64,000 bases of DNA from positions 1,024,321 to 1,088,320 of the forward strand of contig CP031964.1 in assembly GCA_003443635.1 (NCBI GenBank), written 5' to 3'. Under the pieces are notes generated by a model. It was given only the letters and a program-made list of their open reading frames with translations. It ran no database searches and had not been told where the DNA came from. Below are positions 43,744 to 50,754 of this stretch, in pieces (position 1 is the stretch's first letter; the number at the start of each line of letters is the position of its first letter). Position numbers and translations under genes: made by a program. This DNA comes from Flavobacteriaceae bacterium (lineage in GTDB: Bacteria > Bacteroidota > Bacteroidia > Flavobacteriales > Flavobacteriaceae).

Positions 43744-44268
43744 ATGAAACTGATTAAAATTATAATTCTCGTCTTACTTTTTACATCTTGTGCTCCCATA
43801 TTAGTAAATTACGATTACGATAATAAAACAGATTTCACTTTATATAAAACATATAATTACTATTCAGATTTAAATACGGGTTTAAGCGAACTGGATGAAA
43901 ATCGATTATTGGATGCTATAGATATTACAATGAAATTAAAAGGATTAGAATTATCGGATAATCCAGATTTTTTAATTGATATTAAAACTGGGGAGTTTCA
44001 AGGAAATTCACAAAGTACTGTAGGTGTTGGTTTAGGCGGCACAGGACGCAATGTTGGAGGAGGAATTTCTGTGGGTATCCCAATAGGGCAATCTTTAGTA
44101 AATCGTCAAATAATTATTGACTTTATAGATGATAATAAAAATGGATTATTTTGGCAAGTAGTTAGCGAAAGCAGTTATAATCCCAAAGCCAAACCCGAGC
44201 AAAGAGAATTGAAATTTAAGGCAATTATAGATAAAGCCTTATCCAAATATCCTCCTAAACAAGAATAA
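43744..44268 (+). CDS. DUF4136 family lipoprotein
   Basis: Exported lipoprotein of 174 residues with lipobox LLFTSCAP. DUF4136 features are YDNKTDFTLYKTYNYYSD, NPDFLIDIKTGE, a glycine-rich centre (GVGLGGTGRNVGGG) and the ending KFKAIIDKALSKYPPK. The family is common in Bacteroidota and proteobacteria. Its function is unknown, probably at the outer membrane. A strong terminator follows. Confidence 0.88.
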   Translation: MKLIKIIILVLLFTSCAPILVNYDYDNKTDFTLYKTYNYYSDLNTGLSELDENRLLDAIDITMKLKGLELSDNPDFLIDIKTGEFQGNSQSTVGVGLGGTGRNVGGGISVGIPIGQSLVNRQIIIDFIDDNKNGLFWQVVSESSYNPKAKPEQRELKFKAIIDKALSKYPPKQE

Positions 44269-44276
44269 AATATAAT

Positions 44277-44306
44277 AAAAAAAGAGGTCTAAAAACCTCT
44301 TTTTTT
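44277..44306. terminator. Bidirectional terminator between the DUF4136 and DoxX genes
   Basis: A7 plus GAGGT (44277-44288) pairs with ACCTC plus T7 (44295-44306) around a 6-base loop. It serves the convergent genes on both sides. Confidence 0.85.
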
Positions 44307-44329
44307 ATTACTAATGACTTGATGCTTTT

Positions 44330-44704
44330 TTAATTTAAAAGATCTTTGTACTTATCTTTATAATTATAAATCATAGCTAAATTTAAAATTAATAGCCCTA
44401 AAGCTGGTCCAATATTAGCAGTATCTAAAGTTGCATGAAACAATACTGCATTTATAGATACACTCATTAATATAAGTGTCATTAAAGCAGCATATTTATT
44501 TAATAATAATGCCAACCCTGCTGCAATCTCTACAACAGCAACTAAAGTTAATGTTTTTGAAATTGTTAAAGCTCCAAAATAACTTCCAGCATCTTCGGAT
44601 AAACCTTCAAATGGTGGTAAGAAGTTGAAAAATTTATTAGCACCAAATACTAAAACAAAAAGCCCAAGAATAATTCTTAAAGCCATGAAAATCTTTGAAT
44701 TCAT
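44330..44704 (-). CDS. DoxX family membrane protein
   Basis: Small inner-membrane protein of 124 residues with four hydrophobic segments (for example IILGLFVLVFGANKFF, ALTLVVEIAAGLALLL-like stretches and GPALGLLILNLAMIY). The family is linked to redox and quinone metabolism in some bacteria, but the role here is unknown. It converges on the DUF4136 gene and has a long upstream region. Confidence 0.8.
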   Translation of the reverse strand: MNSKIFMALRIILGLFVLVFGANKFFNFLPPFEGLSEDAGSYFGALTISKTLTLVAVVEIAAGLALLLNKYAALMTLILMSVSINAVLFHATLDTANIGPALGLLILNLAMIYNYKDKYKDLLN

Positions 44705-45401
44705 AATAAATATATTTATTAGTTAGATTTTAAAGATAAACAATAAAAATAAATACTCTTTTCTTCTCTAAAACATTTAATTAATCGAAAAATATAAATC
44801 GTTTAGCAAAATCATTTGGAAAGTTAGGAGTAAAATGTGAAAAATTGTTGAGTCTGAATACCAAAATGAAAATTGAGAGTGAAATCCTCAAAAAAGAATG
44901 AATATTTTTTAACTAGTTATAAATTAAATAAATAACTGTATTTGTGATTTCATGTTGCTGCCAAAATATTAAACGCTTATTATTATTATTATTATTATGT
45001 GTTTATGTTTTCCGTCTACCATAATCTAACAACCATTCATCATAATTATATTTTTAATCATATTTTCTGTAGTACTTTTAGATTATAAATCAAAAAACAA
45101 CAGCATGATATATATTATAAAAAATCTTATAGGGTTGATAATTTGTATTTTAAGTTAAGAGTTATGAAAAAATACTACCGACAGTTGCAAGTATATTAAT
45201 CGAATTTAATTTTTATTTATTATTTAAAAGAGAATTTTTATTTGTGATTCTGTATTGCTGAAATTTACCTTTATAAATTGTAAAGAGAAATACTGTAATA
45301 TTTAAAATCAAAATACTTAACCGTTAAGTCAATTTATATGAATTAACTAGGTTTATAAAAAAAAATACTTCGAATTAAACAACTAAAACAGATATTAAAA
45401 A
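44705..45401. other. Long AT-rich intergenic region upstream of the DoxX-like gene
   Basis: About 700 bases without a plausible gene. It holds a short (TTA)n tract at 44977-44998. A 20-base motif occurs twice exactly 300 bases apart (44941-44960 and 45241-45260, 16 of 20 identical: TTTGTGATT....TTGCTG). A 15-base palindrome at 45315-45329 is listed separately. The length suggests a regulatory region or remains of decayed DNA. Confidence 0.6.
45315..45329 (+). promoter_or_regulatory. Palindrome with a LytTR-type motif
   Basis: ACTTAAC C GTTAAGT is a perfect odd palindrome 72 bases before the ATG at 45402. Bases 45320-45328 (ACCGTTAAG) fit the general LytTR half-site pattern [TA][AC][CA]GTTN[AG][TG]. 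A LytTR response regulator is encoded two genes downstream. Confidence 0.4.
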
Positions 45402-47378
45402 ATGAAAAAACTAAATCTTTTATTATTTACTATTTTGATTAGTTTGTGTGTTAATGCACAAACTGTTACAGAGATTTCTAGAAGTTGGACTTCCTTTGTT
45501 CAATCTATAGATATTCAATCAGATACATTGAGAAAATTTAAAGTCATTGCATCTGTAAAGGTTGAAACGAGTGACGATAAGGCTAGAGCAGGAGTTTGGG
45601 CAAGAGTAGATAATAAACCAAATCAAGGTAGAGGTTTTTTTGATAATATGGGGAATAGACCTATAAGGACTAATAAATGGCAATCATATACAATTGAAGG
45701 AATTATAGATTCTAAATCAGAAAAAATTAATTTTGGAGGGATTCTCTATAATAATGGCAAATTCTTCTTTGATAAATTTGAAATTTATATTGAGAATGAC
45801 AATGGGGAATATGAATTCGTAAATATAGATAATTCTAGTTTTGAAGATGTAGTAGTTGATAATACTATTCCTAAATGGGATGAAGGAGTTACTAAGGAGA
45901 GAATTGTTAAAGTAAAAGAGTTTAGTTTTATATCAAATAAGGATAGTGTTGATGGCAGTTATTCATTATTAATAGAAGGTAATGGTATTAAACCTACAAG
46001 TCAAGAAATAGGTGATGTTAGAGAAATATTCCCTTATTTAGGAATTATAATATCTTTATTGTTTATTTTAATATTTATAATTTCATCTATCACTAATATA
46101 TTATCAACGGCAGACGCTACATGGTCTAAATTTAGACGTATTGGATTTAGGTTTTCATTCATTTATTTTTCATTTATTATCCTTTTTCAAAACAATGGAG
46201 CCTATCCATTTTTTGGGTTTATAATTCAAAAACCATCAGAATGGCTACAAAAATTTGGAATTTGGTTTGGAGACCATATTTTAAAAATACCATATATTAT
46301 TAGTACTGGTCCTAATGGTAGTGGAGATACAACATATGATTATATAGTAGTATCGATAGGGTTTTTAGTAGCCGTTTTAGGTGCTATAATTTGGTCTGTT
46401 TTAGATAGGAAGCGAACACATTATACTAAAATGTATTATTGGTTAACTACAGGCATACGTTATTATGTAGGACTAATGTTAATTAGTTATGGAATGGTAA
46501 AAGTTATTCAACTGCAGTTCCCTTCACCAACATTTTATAGGTTGTTAGAACCTTATGGAGAATCTTCTCCTATGGGATTAGCTTGGACATTTTTAGGATT
46601 TTCAGAAGGCTATAATATGTTTATGGGTATTGCTGAGGTTTTAGCAGGATTGTTGTTATTTAGAAGAACTATGACTTTTGGAGCTGTGATCACTTTAATG
46701 ACGACTATGAATGTTATGGCGGTAAATTACTTTTTTGATGTGCCTGTTAAAATATTATCTACACATCTAGTAATTATGACATTATTTTTATTGTCTAGAG
46801 ATATTAAAAAAGTAATGCTGTTTCTAGTAACAGATAAGCCTGTTGAAAAGCTTACTCTCATAAAACGCCCTCAACTAAAAAAAGGAGTGAATATTGGATT
46901 GAATGTATTTAAAGGAGCAATATTAATCTATGCTTTAGGGTTTGGCTTTTTCGAGCAATTAGGAAATAAAAAAATTTATGGAACAGATGCCCCTAAACCA
47001 GAGTTGTATGGCGTATATGAAGTAACAAATTATGTTATTAATGGCGATACGATAGTAGATTATAAAGATAATCGACTATGGAAAAATATTGTATTTGAAA
47101 GAGTAGGTTCTGTGCAAATAAATAAAATGAATAAGCAAAGAAGTTTTTACAGAACCGAAATGGATTCTACGACTCAAAAAGTCAAATTTTTTGCATCTCG
47201 TAGAAATCCTGAAGATTATTTTGATTTTAATTATACAAAAACAGAGAATACTTTAAACTTTAATTATATCTATAAAAACGATACAATTTCTGGGCAAACC
47301 AAACGATTAGATAAAGATGACTTTTTATTAACTAACAGAGGGTTTAATTGGATAAGTGAAAGACCATTTAATCGTTAA
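45402..47378 (+). CDS. Large DoxX-like membrane protein with extracytoplasmic N-terminal domain
   Basis: A signal peptide (LLLFTILISLCVNAQ) is followed by an extracytoplasmic beta-rich domain of about 180 residues (ARVDNKPNQGRGFFDNMG). A membrane region with about eight TM segments spans residues 205-520. The TM part has DoxX-like stretches such as VGLMLISYGMVKVIQLQF and GIAEVLAGLLLFRR. The C-terminal 130 residues (ELYGVYEVTNYVINGD) look like a soluble lipocalin-like tail. At 658 residues it is far longer than DoxX. It is followed by a LytS/LytTR pair and then by a decayed second copy of itself. Function unknown. Confidence 0.75.
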   Translation: MKKLNLLLFTILISLCVNAQTVTEISRSWTSFVQSIDIQSDTLRKFKVIASVKVETSDDKARAGVWARVDNKPNQGRGFFDNMGNRPIRTNKWQSYTIEGIIDSKSEKINFGGILYNNGKFFFDKFEIYIENDNGEYEFVNIDNSSFEDVVVDNTIPKWDEGVTKERIVKVKEFSFISNKDSVDGSYSLLIEGNGIKPTSQEIGDVREIFPYLGIIISLLFILIFIISSITNILSTADATWSKFRRIGFRFSFIYFSFIILFQNNGAYPFFGFIIQKPSEWLQKFGIWFGDHILKIPYIISTGPNGSGDTTYDYIVVSIGFLVAVLGAIIWSVLDRKRTHYTKMYYWLTTGIRYYVGLMLISYGMVKVIQLQFPSPTFYRLLEPYGESSPMGLAWTFLGFSEGYNMFMGIAEVLAGLLLFRRTMTFGAVITLMTTMNVMAVNYFFDVPVKILSTHLVIMTLFLLSRDIKKVMLFLVTDKPVEKLTLIKRPQLKKGVNIGLNVFKGAILIYALGFGFFEQLGNKKIYGTDAPKPELYGVYEVTNYVINGDTIVDYKDNRLWKNIVFERVGSVQINKMNKQRSFYRTEMDSTTQKVKFFASRRNPEDYFDFNYTKTENTLNFNYIYKNDTISGQTKRLDKDDFLLTNRGFNWISERPFNR

Positions 47379-47417
47379 AACTAAAAAAAAATATTTGTTC
47401 AAAATTATGATAATTAA

Positions 47418-48482
47418 ATGAAGCTGTCTTTTAATAAATACTACATCATATTTGGACTTATAAGCTGGATATTGTTATTTGCCTTAACATTAGGTGGGCC
47501 AAAAATATATTTTAGAACGACCCCACTGGAGTTGAATCAAGAAATTTATTTTTGGGTAGAAAGTATTCTATGCGGCATCATAGCTTTTGTATGTAGCTAT
47601 TCAGTGTCCTTATATATAGATTATAAAATTAATTTAAAAGTATCGGTAAAACCTTATATATGGAAAATTTTAATAGCGTTTGTGTTTTGTCAAGTTATTT
47701 ATTCATTAGTAATTTGGCCAATTTTAGACCTTGCTGCATTAACAATAAGAGGTAATAATACTACTGTTTCATTTTCGGGAAAAATATACAATGTGTTTTA
47801 TTTTACAACTTTATTTTTTATTTGGTTGTTTGTTTTTTTAACGATTAAAATTTATTATCAATTAAAAACAGTTCAATTAAGACAATTACAATTAGAAACA
47901 AATTTAAAAGAATTGCAACTTAACACATTAAAAGGGCAGTTAAATCCTCACTTTATGTTTAATAGCTTAAATAATATTCGTGGTTTAATGTTAGAAGATA
48001 TTACTAAATCTCGAGATATGCTTACTCGCTTATCTGAAACCTTGCGATATTCCCTTACTAAAAATGATGTAGACTCTATAGCATTTGAAGATGAATTAGA
48101 AATGGTTGAGAATTATGTTGAGATTTCTAAAATACAACTGGAAGATCGCTTACGATTTAAAACACATATTGATGAAAATTCTTTGAATAAGCAAATACCT
48201 CCAATGATTGTACAGATGTTAGTTGAGAATGCTATTAAGCATGGTATAGCGACTCTTAAAGAAGGAGGGGAGGTTATTTTAACAGCATATATCGAAAATG
48301 AAAAGCTATTAATAAGCGTTACCAATTCGGGGAAGTTAAAACAAGCTAAAGATACTACACAATTAGGAGTAGAAAATATTAAACAACGATTAGAGTTGTT
48401 ATATGGAGAAAATGCTACCTTTAATTTGTTTGAAAATAATAATCAAGTAGTAGCATCTATTAAAATACCATTAAGCTCATGA
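47418..48482 (+). CDS. LytS-type sensor histidine kinase
   Basis: Sensor kinase of 354 residues. Four TM segments occupy residues about 8-148. They are followed by the His_kinase (LytS-type) domain with the phospho-accepting H178 in QLNPHFMFNSLNNIRGL, and an HATPase with PPMIVQMLVENAIKHGI and QLGVENIKQRLELLYG. There is no separate input domain, so the membrane part is the likely sensor. Its stop overlaps the response regulator start by four bases (ATGA), which indicates coupled translation. Confidence 0.92.
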   Translation: MKLSFNKYYIIFGLISWILLFALTLGGPKIYFRTTPLELNQEIYFWVESILCGIIAFVCSYSVSLYIDYKINLKVSVKPYIWKILIAFVFCQVIYSLVIWPILDLAALTIRGNNTTVSFSGKIYNVFYFTTLFFIWLFVFLTIKIYYQLKTVQLRQLQLETNLKELQLNTLKGQLNPHFMFNSLNNIRGLMLEDITKSRDMLTRLSETLRYSLTKNDVDSIAFEDELEMVENYVEISKIQLEDRLRFKTHIDENSLNKQIPPMIVQMLVENAIKHGIATLKEGGEVILTAYIENEKLLISVTNSGKLKQAKDTTQLGVENIKQRLELLYGENATFNLFENNNQVVASIKIPLSS

Positions 48483-49204
48483 CATTGAATGCAGTTATCG
48501 TAGAAGATTCTCGTTTAGCTCGTAATGAGTTGAAAGAATTAATAAAGAAATATAAAGAAATTTCTCTTTTAGGCGAAGCTGAAAATGTAGATAAAGGTTT
48601 TGAACTTATCAAAAAAATGAAGCCAGATTTACTTTTTTTAGATATTAATATGCCTGAAAAAGATGGTTTTGAATTACTAGAAATGTTAGATGAAGTGCCT
48701 ACAGTAATTTTTACTACTGCTTTTGATGAATATGCTATAAAATCTTTTGAATACAATGCGTTTGATTATCTGCTAAAACCAATAAGTGAAAAACGATTTT
48801 CTGACTCTATGACTAAAATTTTAGAACGTTTTTCAGTTGAACCTAATAAAACTGTTAAGGAAAACACTATAAGTCTGGATAAACAAATTTTTATAAAAGA
48901 AGGAGAAAAATGCTGGTTGGTTAAAATTAAAGATATTTCACATTTCGAAATTGTTGGCAATTACACACGCGTTTTTTTTGAAGGTCATAAACCTCTTATT
49001 TATAAATCATTAGCGCAAATAGAAGATAAATTGCCAAATGATATATTTTTTAGAGCGAACAGACAACAGGTTATCAATATTAACCATGTGAATAAAGTGT
49101 TGTCATGGTTTAATGGAAAGCTTAAGGTAGAGATGAATACTGGAGAAGAAATTGAAATTTCTAGAAGACAATCTTATTTATTTAAAGAACAATTAAGTTT
49201 TTAA
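48479..49204 (+). CDS. LytTR-family response regulator
   Basis: Partner of the upstream kinase, 241 residues. The receiver domain has VIVEDS and the phosphorylated D55 in LLFLDINMPEKDGFELL, with TTAFDEYA and LLKPIS. The C-terminal LytTR domain has HFEIVGNYTRVFF and FFRANRQQVINI. It overlaps the kinase gene by four bases. Likely targets include the DoxX-like gene upstream, where a LytTR-type half-site is present. Confidence 0.93.
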   Translation: MTLNAVIVEDSRLARNELKELIKKYKEISLLGEAENVDKGFELIKKMKPDLLFLDINMPEKDGFELLEMLDEVPTVIFTTAFDEYAIKSFEYNAFDYLLKPISEKRFSDSMTKILERFSVEPNKTVKENTISLDKQIFIKEGEKCWLVKIKDISHFEIVGNYTRVFFEGHKPLIYKSLAQIEDKLPNDIFFRANRQQVININHVNKVLSWFNGKLKVEMNTGEEIEISRRQSYLFKEQLSF

Positions 49205-49225
49205 ATCAGTTTATTAGAATCGTAT

Positions 49226-49663
49226 GTATTTATTTCATTAATCATTGTTTTTCAAAATAATGAAGTTTATCCGTTTTTTAGAGTATAAGTACAAAAACCA
49301 AGAGAATTACTTCAGAAATTTGCACCTTGGTTTGAAAAAAACATTTTAAATATATCTTGCGAAATTGCTACAGAACCTAATGGCAGTGAGGTATGCTTAT
49401 GACTATTTAGTAATATTGATGGCTTTTATGGTAGAAGTATTAGGAGCTTTAATTTGGCCTATCCTATTTATAGAAAAAGAACGCATTATACAAAAATATA
49501 TCATTGACTTACTATAGGAATATATTATTATGTAAGTTTAAGGCTAACTAGTTACGGTATGGTTAAAGTGATTCAATATATCTGGTAGGATTAGGTAAAA
49601 AAGGATTTTTTGCTAACAAATCGGTGCTTTTATTGGATAAGTGAACGCCCATATAATCGTTAA
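49226..49663 (+). pseudogene. Decayed, internally deleted copy of the large DoxX-like gene
   Basis: Pieces in changing frames match the protein encoded at 45402-47378. VFISLIIVFQNNEVYPFF and QKPRELLQKFAPWFEKNIL correspond to parent residues around 250-300. DYLVILMAFMVEVLGALIW and RKRTHYTKIYH follow. After SYGMVKVIQ (parent about 365) the sequence jumps to FLLTNRCFYWISERPYNR (parent about 640-658) and ends with TAA. There are at least two frameshifts and three in-frame stops, one of them a TGG to TGA change, and roughly 270 parent codons are missing. The 5' third is also absent. It begins 22 bases after the response regulator stop. Confidence 0.85.
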
Positions 49664-49770
49664 ATAATATAACTTAAAAGCACTAAACAATTTGTAAATT
49701 CGTTTTATTGAATAAAGTTAATCTTATTATAAAATAAATAAAAAACGATATCGAGAAAATATTTTGGCTT

Positions 49771-49778
49771 TATTTTTG
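49771..49778 (+). promoter_or_regulatory. Candidate -7 promoter box for the TPR protein gene
   Basis: TATTTTTG matches TAnnTTTG, 16 bases before the ATG at 49795. Confidence 0.45.
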
Positions 49779-49794
49779 GAACTCTAAAATTGAT

Positions 49795-50754
49795 ATGAAA
49801 AAGATACTACTTTTACTTCTTGTACTACCTGTTTTTAGTTTTGGTCAGTCAACATTATCTAATGTTGAAAAACTATTAGAACAAAAAGAATATGAAAAAG
49901 CCGAACATATAATGATAGATTATGTAAAAAATAATCCAAACGATATTAGAGGTATTGAATTGTTAGGCGATACATATGGTTATCAAAAAAAATGGAAAGC
50001 TTCTAGTACATATTTTAAAATGTTGATTGATAGAGATAATTCTAAGGCTAATTATCATTTTAAATATGGTGGCGCTTTAGGGATGCATGCTAGAGAAATT
50101 AGTAAATTTTCTGCTTTAGGTATTATTGGTGATGTAAAAGAAGCATTTTTAAAAGCTGCAGAGTTAGACCCTAAGCATATAGAAACTCGTTGGGCTTTAG
50201 TAGAATTGTATATGCAATTGCCAGGTATTATAGGAGGAAGCAAAAATAAAGCTCTTAAATATGCTAATCAAATAGAGAAACTGTCGAAAGTAGATGGATA
50301 TTTAGCTAAAGGTTATATTTATGAAAATGATGATGAACCAAAATTAGCAGAAGAGCATTATAAGATGGCGATACGAATAGGAGGCTCTATTACCTGTTTT
50401 AATAAACTAACAGAGCTTTACGAAAAAACGAACGAACCTAATAAGGCTATTGCTAATATAGAAGAAGCTCAAAAACAAGAGAAGCTTAAGGCATACCGTA
50501 ATACGCTACACTATCAAATAGGTAAAGTCGCAGCTCGATATAACCTTCAGCTTGACAAAGGTGAGACTTGTTTAAAAACATATATTGAAAATTATAGTGC
50601 TAAAGATGCTGCACCTATTGAGTGGGCATACTTACGATTAGCTCAAATATATAAGCTAAAAAAAAATAAACAAGAAGCCTTAAATTGGGCAGATAAAGCA
50701 ATTTCCATTCGATCAGATTTTCAAGAAGCTAAAGAGTTTAAAGAAAGTATATAA
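49795..50754 (+). CDS. Exported tetratricopeptide-repeat protein
   Basis: A signal peptide (ILLLLLVLPVFSFGQ) is followed by about 300 residues of helical TPR repeats. Examples are LLEQKEYEKAEHIMIDYV, LLGDTYGYQKKWKASSTYF, AAELDPKHIETRWALVELY and AYLRLAQIYKLKKNKQEAL. Such proteins scaffold protein-protein contacts in the periplasm. No enzymatic domain is seen, and the partner is unknown. It is a single-gene unit between the pseudogene and mpl. Confidence 0.82.
   Translation: MKKILLLLLVLPVFSFGQSTLSNVEKLLEQKEYEKAEHIMIDYVKNNPNDIRGIELLGDTYGYQKKWKASSTYFKMLIDRDNSKANYHFKYGGALGMHAREISKFSALGIIGDVKEAFLKAAELDPKHIETRWALVELYMQLPGIIGGSKNKALKYANQIEKLSKVDGYLAKGYIYENDDEPKLAEEHYKMAIRIGGSITCFNKLTELYEKTNEPNKAIANIEEAQKQEKLKAYRNTLHYQIGKVAARYNLQLDKGETCLKTYIENYSAKDAAPIEWAYLRLAQIYKLKKNKQEALNWADKAISIRSDFQEAKEFKESI

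Follow-up and report, generated by a model that had tools for sequence, protein, structure and literature searches.

A probable pseudogene of a second long DoxX-like gene downstream of a LytTR regulator gene in a Flavobacteriaceae bacterium

The gap that follows a gene for a LytTR-type response regulator in the chromosome of a Flavobacteriaceae bacterium appears empty, and yet it is a former gene. It lies in a stretch of 64,000 nucleotides (the window; Table 1), in which a LytS/LytTR pair is preceded by an intact gene of 658 codons, referred to below as the 'long' gene. The sequence in the gap is very probably an ordinary pseudogene left by another member of the long clade, which once stood downstream of the regulator gene. 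Bacterial pseudogenes are reported to derive from redundant genes or from acquired genes that failed (PMC522871). The remnant resembles them in being a copy of a known gene that has been disabled by truncation, stops and frameshifts and that lies next to an intact relative, and it differs from them in nothing essential; it may itself have originated by duplication or by transfer. The loss is thus of an ordinary kind, and it occurred at a spot of the chromosome where gene content often changes.

Table 1. Features of the window discussed in the text
Feature	Position	Strand	Remarks
174-aa protein	43744..44268	+	Delimits the variable interval on its left side in most relatives
Intact long paralogue, 658 aa	45402..47378	+	N- and C-terminal domains both rich in strands; between them helices, which in a distant relative are weakly DoxX/MauE-like
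LytS-like sensor kinase, 354 aa	47418..48482	+	PF06580
Response regulator with LytTR domain, 241 aa	48479..49204	+	PF00072, PF04397; stop codon abuts the remnant
Remnant, piece 1	49228..49576	+	Aligns with codons 252–370 of the 658-codon gene, interrupted by stops in frame and by frameshifts; blastn, tblastn, shuffles
Remnant, piece 2	49589..49663	+	Codons 638–658 and stop codon of the 658-codon gene; blastn, tblastn
TPR-repeat protein	49795..50754	+	Right border of the variable interval

Homology and lesions of the remnant

The gap searched covers 49205–49794, from the end of the LytTR gene (49204) to the start of the TPR gene (49795). A blastn search of this gap gave two matches to the 658-codon gene. 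Gap nucleotides 24–372 (window 49228–49576) align with gene nucleotides 760–1110 (258 of 354 identities, 73%; E 6e-51), and gap nucleotides 385–460 (window 49589–49664) align with gene nucleotides 1904–1978 including the stop codon (59 of 76, 78%; E 7e-12). The comparison of the parent protein with the gap by tblastn, which the initial annotation had proposed, recovers both pieces, with 49% identity across residues 252–370 (E 1e-29) and a second match across residues 638–658 (E 3e-8). The tblastn scores reach 103 bits, as against at most 23.5 bits in 500 dinucleotide shuffles of the gap, and together with the blastn result this places the similarity far above chance, so that the gap does retain recognisable pieces of the 658-residue protein, as first described. 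When the own genome is searched with this protein, the remnant stretch ranks second of three matches.

The reading frame of the remnant is disabled. Two TGA codons and one TAA codon interrupt the aligned frame, and a portion of the homology falls in another frame, which reveals frame changes; the stops and frameshifts reported at the outset are therefore real. Approximately 245 N-terminal codons are absent without a trace having been found, a loss that the initial annotation does not mention, and the remnant starts no more than about 24 bases after the LytTR stop codon. In the interior, residues 371–637 are unaligned, and these 267 codons agree with the deletion of about 270 codons originally estimated, although some bases where the two pieces meet may, as judged by eye, derive from around codon 622. 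The C-terminus, on the other hand, had been called exact and is only nearly so: 17 of its 21 residues are identical, and it ends in PYNR where the parent has PFNR. Rfam gave no match to an RNA gene within 44200–50000, and at 49100–49850 promoter-like sites were not more numerous than in shuffles and the search for a terminator found none. The remnant presumably makes no product now.

Mode and age of decay

When the reference is the state shared by most of nine other long genes, 18, 12 and 20 changes on codon positions 1, 2 and 3, respectively, are assigned to the remnant, and 8, 8 and 22 to the window gene. The ratio of changes at positions 1 and 2 to those at position 3 is 37:15 in the remnant as against 224:206 in 11 long genes pooled (Fisher p 0.012, 70% filter), or 19:5 as against 81:59 with a stricter 90% filter (Fisher p 0.069), in a small sample in which the pooled rows share history and one of the 11 genes, that of an uncultured Dokdonia (L050), contains a stop. 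As far as sequences can tell, this contrast fits a loss of selection on the remnant.

The window's own long gene is the nearest relative of the remnant, as would be expected if the intact gene had recently converted the stretch or had recently been copied there in part. However, the longest exact match between the two is 14 bases, and their identity differs rather little from one part of the stretch to another (65–82% in 60-site windows). Recent gene conversion, which the initial annotation had named as the explanation that would overturn its own, is excluded by these two observations, and a recent origin of either kind is so improbable as to be negligible.

The long gene and its family

The 658-residue protein has no sequence match in Pfam, NCBIfam or PDB, and 'DoxX-like' is a loose label for it. 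Its likeness to the DoxX (PF07681) and MauE (PF07291) families consists of weak matches to the helices of L045, a short and distant relative (E 0.0067 and 0.0091, respectively, both below the cut-off), whereas the long protein of the window is without a Pfam match and has two further domains. Even the best relative tried stays below the cut-off of PF07681 (17.5 bits as against 23.6), and the window protein does not match this family at all. In a predicted model of the protein (mean pLDDT 75.3, pTM 0.58), the N-terminal and the C-terminal parts are both rich in strands, and helices occupy residues 211 to 526. Foldseek returned no match to this model at E ≤ 0.001, and the weak similarities to lipocalin-like and carbohydrate-binding folds may be regarded as leads only.

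Matches to the parent protein at E ≤ 1e-20 occur in 58 of the 397 genomes of the bacterial family that were searched, and they are of full length in four of the 397 (G000, G085, G287 and G319). Most of the others cover only residues ~235–658, in proteins of ~430 residues (encoded by 'short' genes), and some cover only residues 1–223, mostly in proteins of ~380 residues. In the order-level sample, the long genes of G000 and G319 are the only ones at E ≤ 1e-130 (2 of 395). Because most relatives match one part alone, the long protein looks like a fusion of a strand-rich N-terminal domain with the DoxX-like/C-terminal part.

In the Lacinutrix sp. 2-830 locus (L049, 8852–9985), a protein of 377 aa joins the N-terminal domain of the long protein to a DinB/mycothiol-transferase-like domain (PF04978, E 7.6e-9), and both L049 and G138 have fusion genes of this type next to the LytS/LytTR pair. 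In the own genome (L047, 4170–6464; C1 near 1833187), the same N-terminal domain stands before amidohydrolase (PF01979, E 4.2e-26) and SnoaL-like domains in a protein of 764 aa. Relatives of the parent are interrupted in other genomes as well: a stop codon in frame divides the long gene of the uncultured Dokdonia (L050, 9995–11965), and another divides a short gene of Lacinutrix algicola (L064, 9989–11272), a sequencing error being possible in both cases.

The interval in relatives

The interval examined in relatives is bordered on the left by homologues of the genes at 43744 and 42664, and on the right by homologues of a gene of ~2000 residues and of the TPR gene. In neighbouring genera it is occupied by short genes, which were read in G200, G083 (where the contig ends early), G007, G298, G140 and Winogradskyella aurantia (L060). 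Lacinutrix mariniflava (L063) and L. algicola also have short genes there, with border genes on the left side alone, which makes eight loci (L039–L043, L060, L063 and L064). In G045, G240, G391, G203 and G211, the interval holds a LytS/LytTR pair but neither long nor short genes of the family. The pair and a long gene occur together in four of the 13 long-gene loci read, apart from L058, L059 and L066, where partial long genes lie at contig ends, and with L052 taken, from its length, to be the contig of G085. The long gene is upstream of the pair in the window, in G085 and in Winogradskyella DT_119 (L056), and in Lacinutrix sp. 2-830 the single full-length long gene of that genome is downstream of LytTR, after the DinB-fused gene and thus on the side of the remnant. 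In G287, G319, L050, L051, L053, L054, L055, L057 and L065, a long gene is present without the pair. The species of the window is represented by one genome, and in the single other genome of its genus, G001, neither the pair nor the gene is found at the interval.

The order of the long gene and the neighbouring regulators is thus fluid. The pair often lacks a DoxX-like neighbour of the family and long genes often lack the pair, so that the initial description of the long gene as the target of the pair is not supported; regulation of the long gene by the pair is unproven. Among 109 gaps, two from the window and the rest from 23 loci of relatives, matches to long or short genes were found only in the window gap after LytTR. 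None of 14 genomes searched has two full-length long genes: 11 have one each, including that of L050 with its in-frame stop, and three have a short gene at best. An intact second copy, which the initial annotation had proposed to look for in relatives, is accordingly absent from these 14 genomes. Of the target-regulator-target arrangement proposed at first, the former presence of paralogues on both sides of the pair holds, whereas a stable tandem in relatives is not shown.

Position of the remnant within the family

The remnant might instead be what is left of a short gene (~430 residues, without the N-terminal domain) that had long occupied the locus and was displaced by an arriving cassette of the long gene, LytS and LytTR. 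This explanation was favoured first, since short genes occupy the interval in the eight loci of relatives. The remnant also starts about where short genes begin, and the short gene of G200 is nearly as similar to it as the distant long ones are. However, over the 143 columns that the remnant covers, 136 of which are comparable, its protein identity is 64% to the window gene, 59% to the long gene of L049, 55–56% to the four long ones that follow, 46–54% to the remaining long ones and at most 51% to any short one. A tree of 28 rows joins the remnant with the long genes of the window and G287 (93/93), as do trees of 25 rows (82/78 for protein, 85/67 for DNA), from which the distant rows G287_short, G077_short and G086_short were left out; in both of the latter, the window and G287 genes are nearer each other than either is to the remnant. 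Constraining the remnant with 11 short genes gives p-AU values of 0.023 (protein) and 0.041 (DNA), and constraining it with the short genes of G200 and G298 gives 0.0045 (protein). The remnant is accordingly derived from the long (fused) clade, descent from a resident short gene is quite unlikely, and the pair did lie, as first claimed, between two paralogues, one of which decayed.

Within the long clade, the exact position of the remnant is moderately supported by the sequences. A placement as sister to the window gene alone is not rejected, but nor is it demonstrated (p-AU 0.16 for protein, 0.36 for DNA), and the same test does not reject a sister relationship to the long gene of L049 (0.115 and 0.163), of G287 (0.39 and 0.229) or of G085 (0.201, protein only). 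Because these placements are not rejected, a duplication within the lineage of the window is not proven. The second long-clade gene would have arisen as a paralogue of the window gene, either through a duplication or because a close relative arrived separately at this changeable interval. Some 245 codons at its start, as far as the LytTR stop, and about 267 internal codons would then have been deleted, and stops and frameshifts would have gathered since under little selection. Redundancy with the intact copy may have allowed the loss.

The LytS/LytTR pair and exchange at the interval

LytS proper has a 5TM sensor domain. The kinase of the window contains the His_kinase domain PF06580 (E 3.5e-23) and, apart from it, only one match of another family, below the cut-off. 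The window pair resembles other LytS/LytTR-type pairs in that both domains are present (PF06580 in the kinase, PF04397 in the regulator), here in overlapping genes, and its kinase differs from LytS proper in that the 5TM domain is not found. In trees, the window pair groups with that of G085 (100/100), whereas the window long gene groups with that of G287, which is non-syntenic (99/98). This discordance is not significant, since joining the window and G085 for the long gene gives a p-AU of 0.237.

Two long-clade copies that flank the pair are what would be expected if the whole unit of long gene, LytS and LytTR had been duplicated in tandem and the second unit had decayed, as had been suggested initially. 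However, no LytS or LytTR piece is found within the 131 bases after the remnant, the 3' flank of which is not convincingly like that of the intact gene. Furthermore, the own genome yields a single LytS match at E ≤ 1e-40, and none of the loci read in relatives has two such units, and duplication of the whole unit is hence improbable. The preferred reading remains the decay of a second long-clade gene alone.

A broader reading is more tentative. The interval 43744–49795 may possibly be a replacement site of Flavobacteriaceae that has repeatedly exchanged short DoxX-like, long fused, LytS/LytTR and small DoxX genes, the window having been caught in the middle of an exchange, with decayed copies of a long and a small DoxX gene beside intact ones. 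If so, the locus would provide a small natural series in which to study the gain and loss of genes next to a regulator pair. Among the publications listed by a literature search, none on this locus was seen, and DoxX and LytTR surfaced together in one paper, on Leptospira.

A second decayed gene lies at 44712–44906 on the minus strand, a remnant of a small DoxX gene beside an intact one at 44330–44704. The same stretch is matched by nine of 10 small DoxX proteins (best E 4e-7), with 33.9 bits as against at most 25.0 in 500 shuffles.
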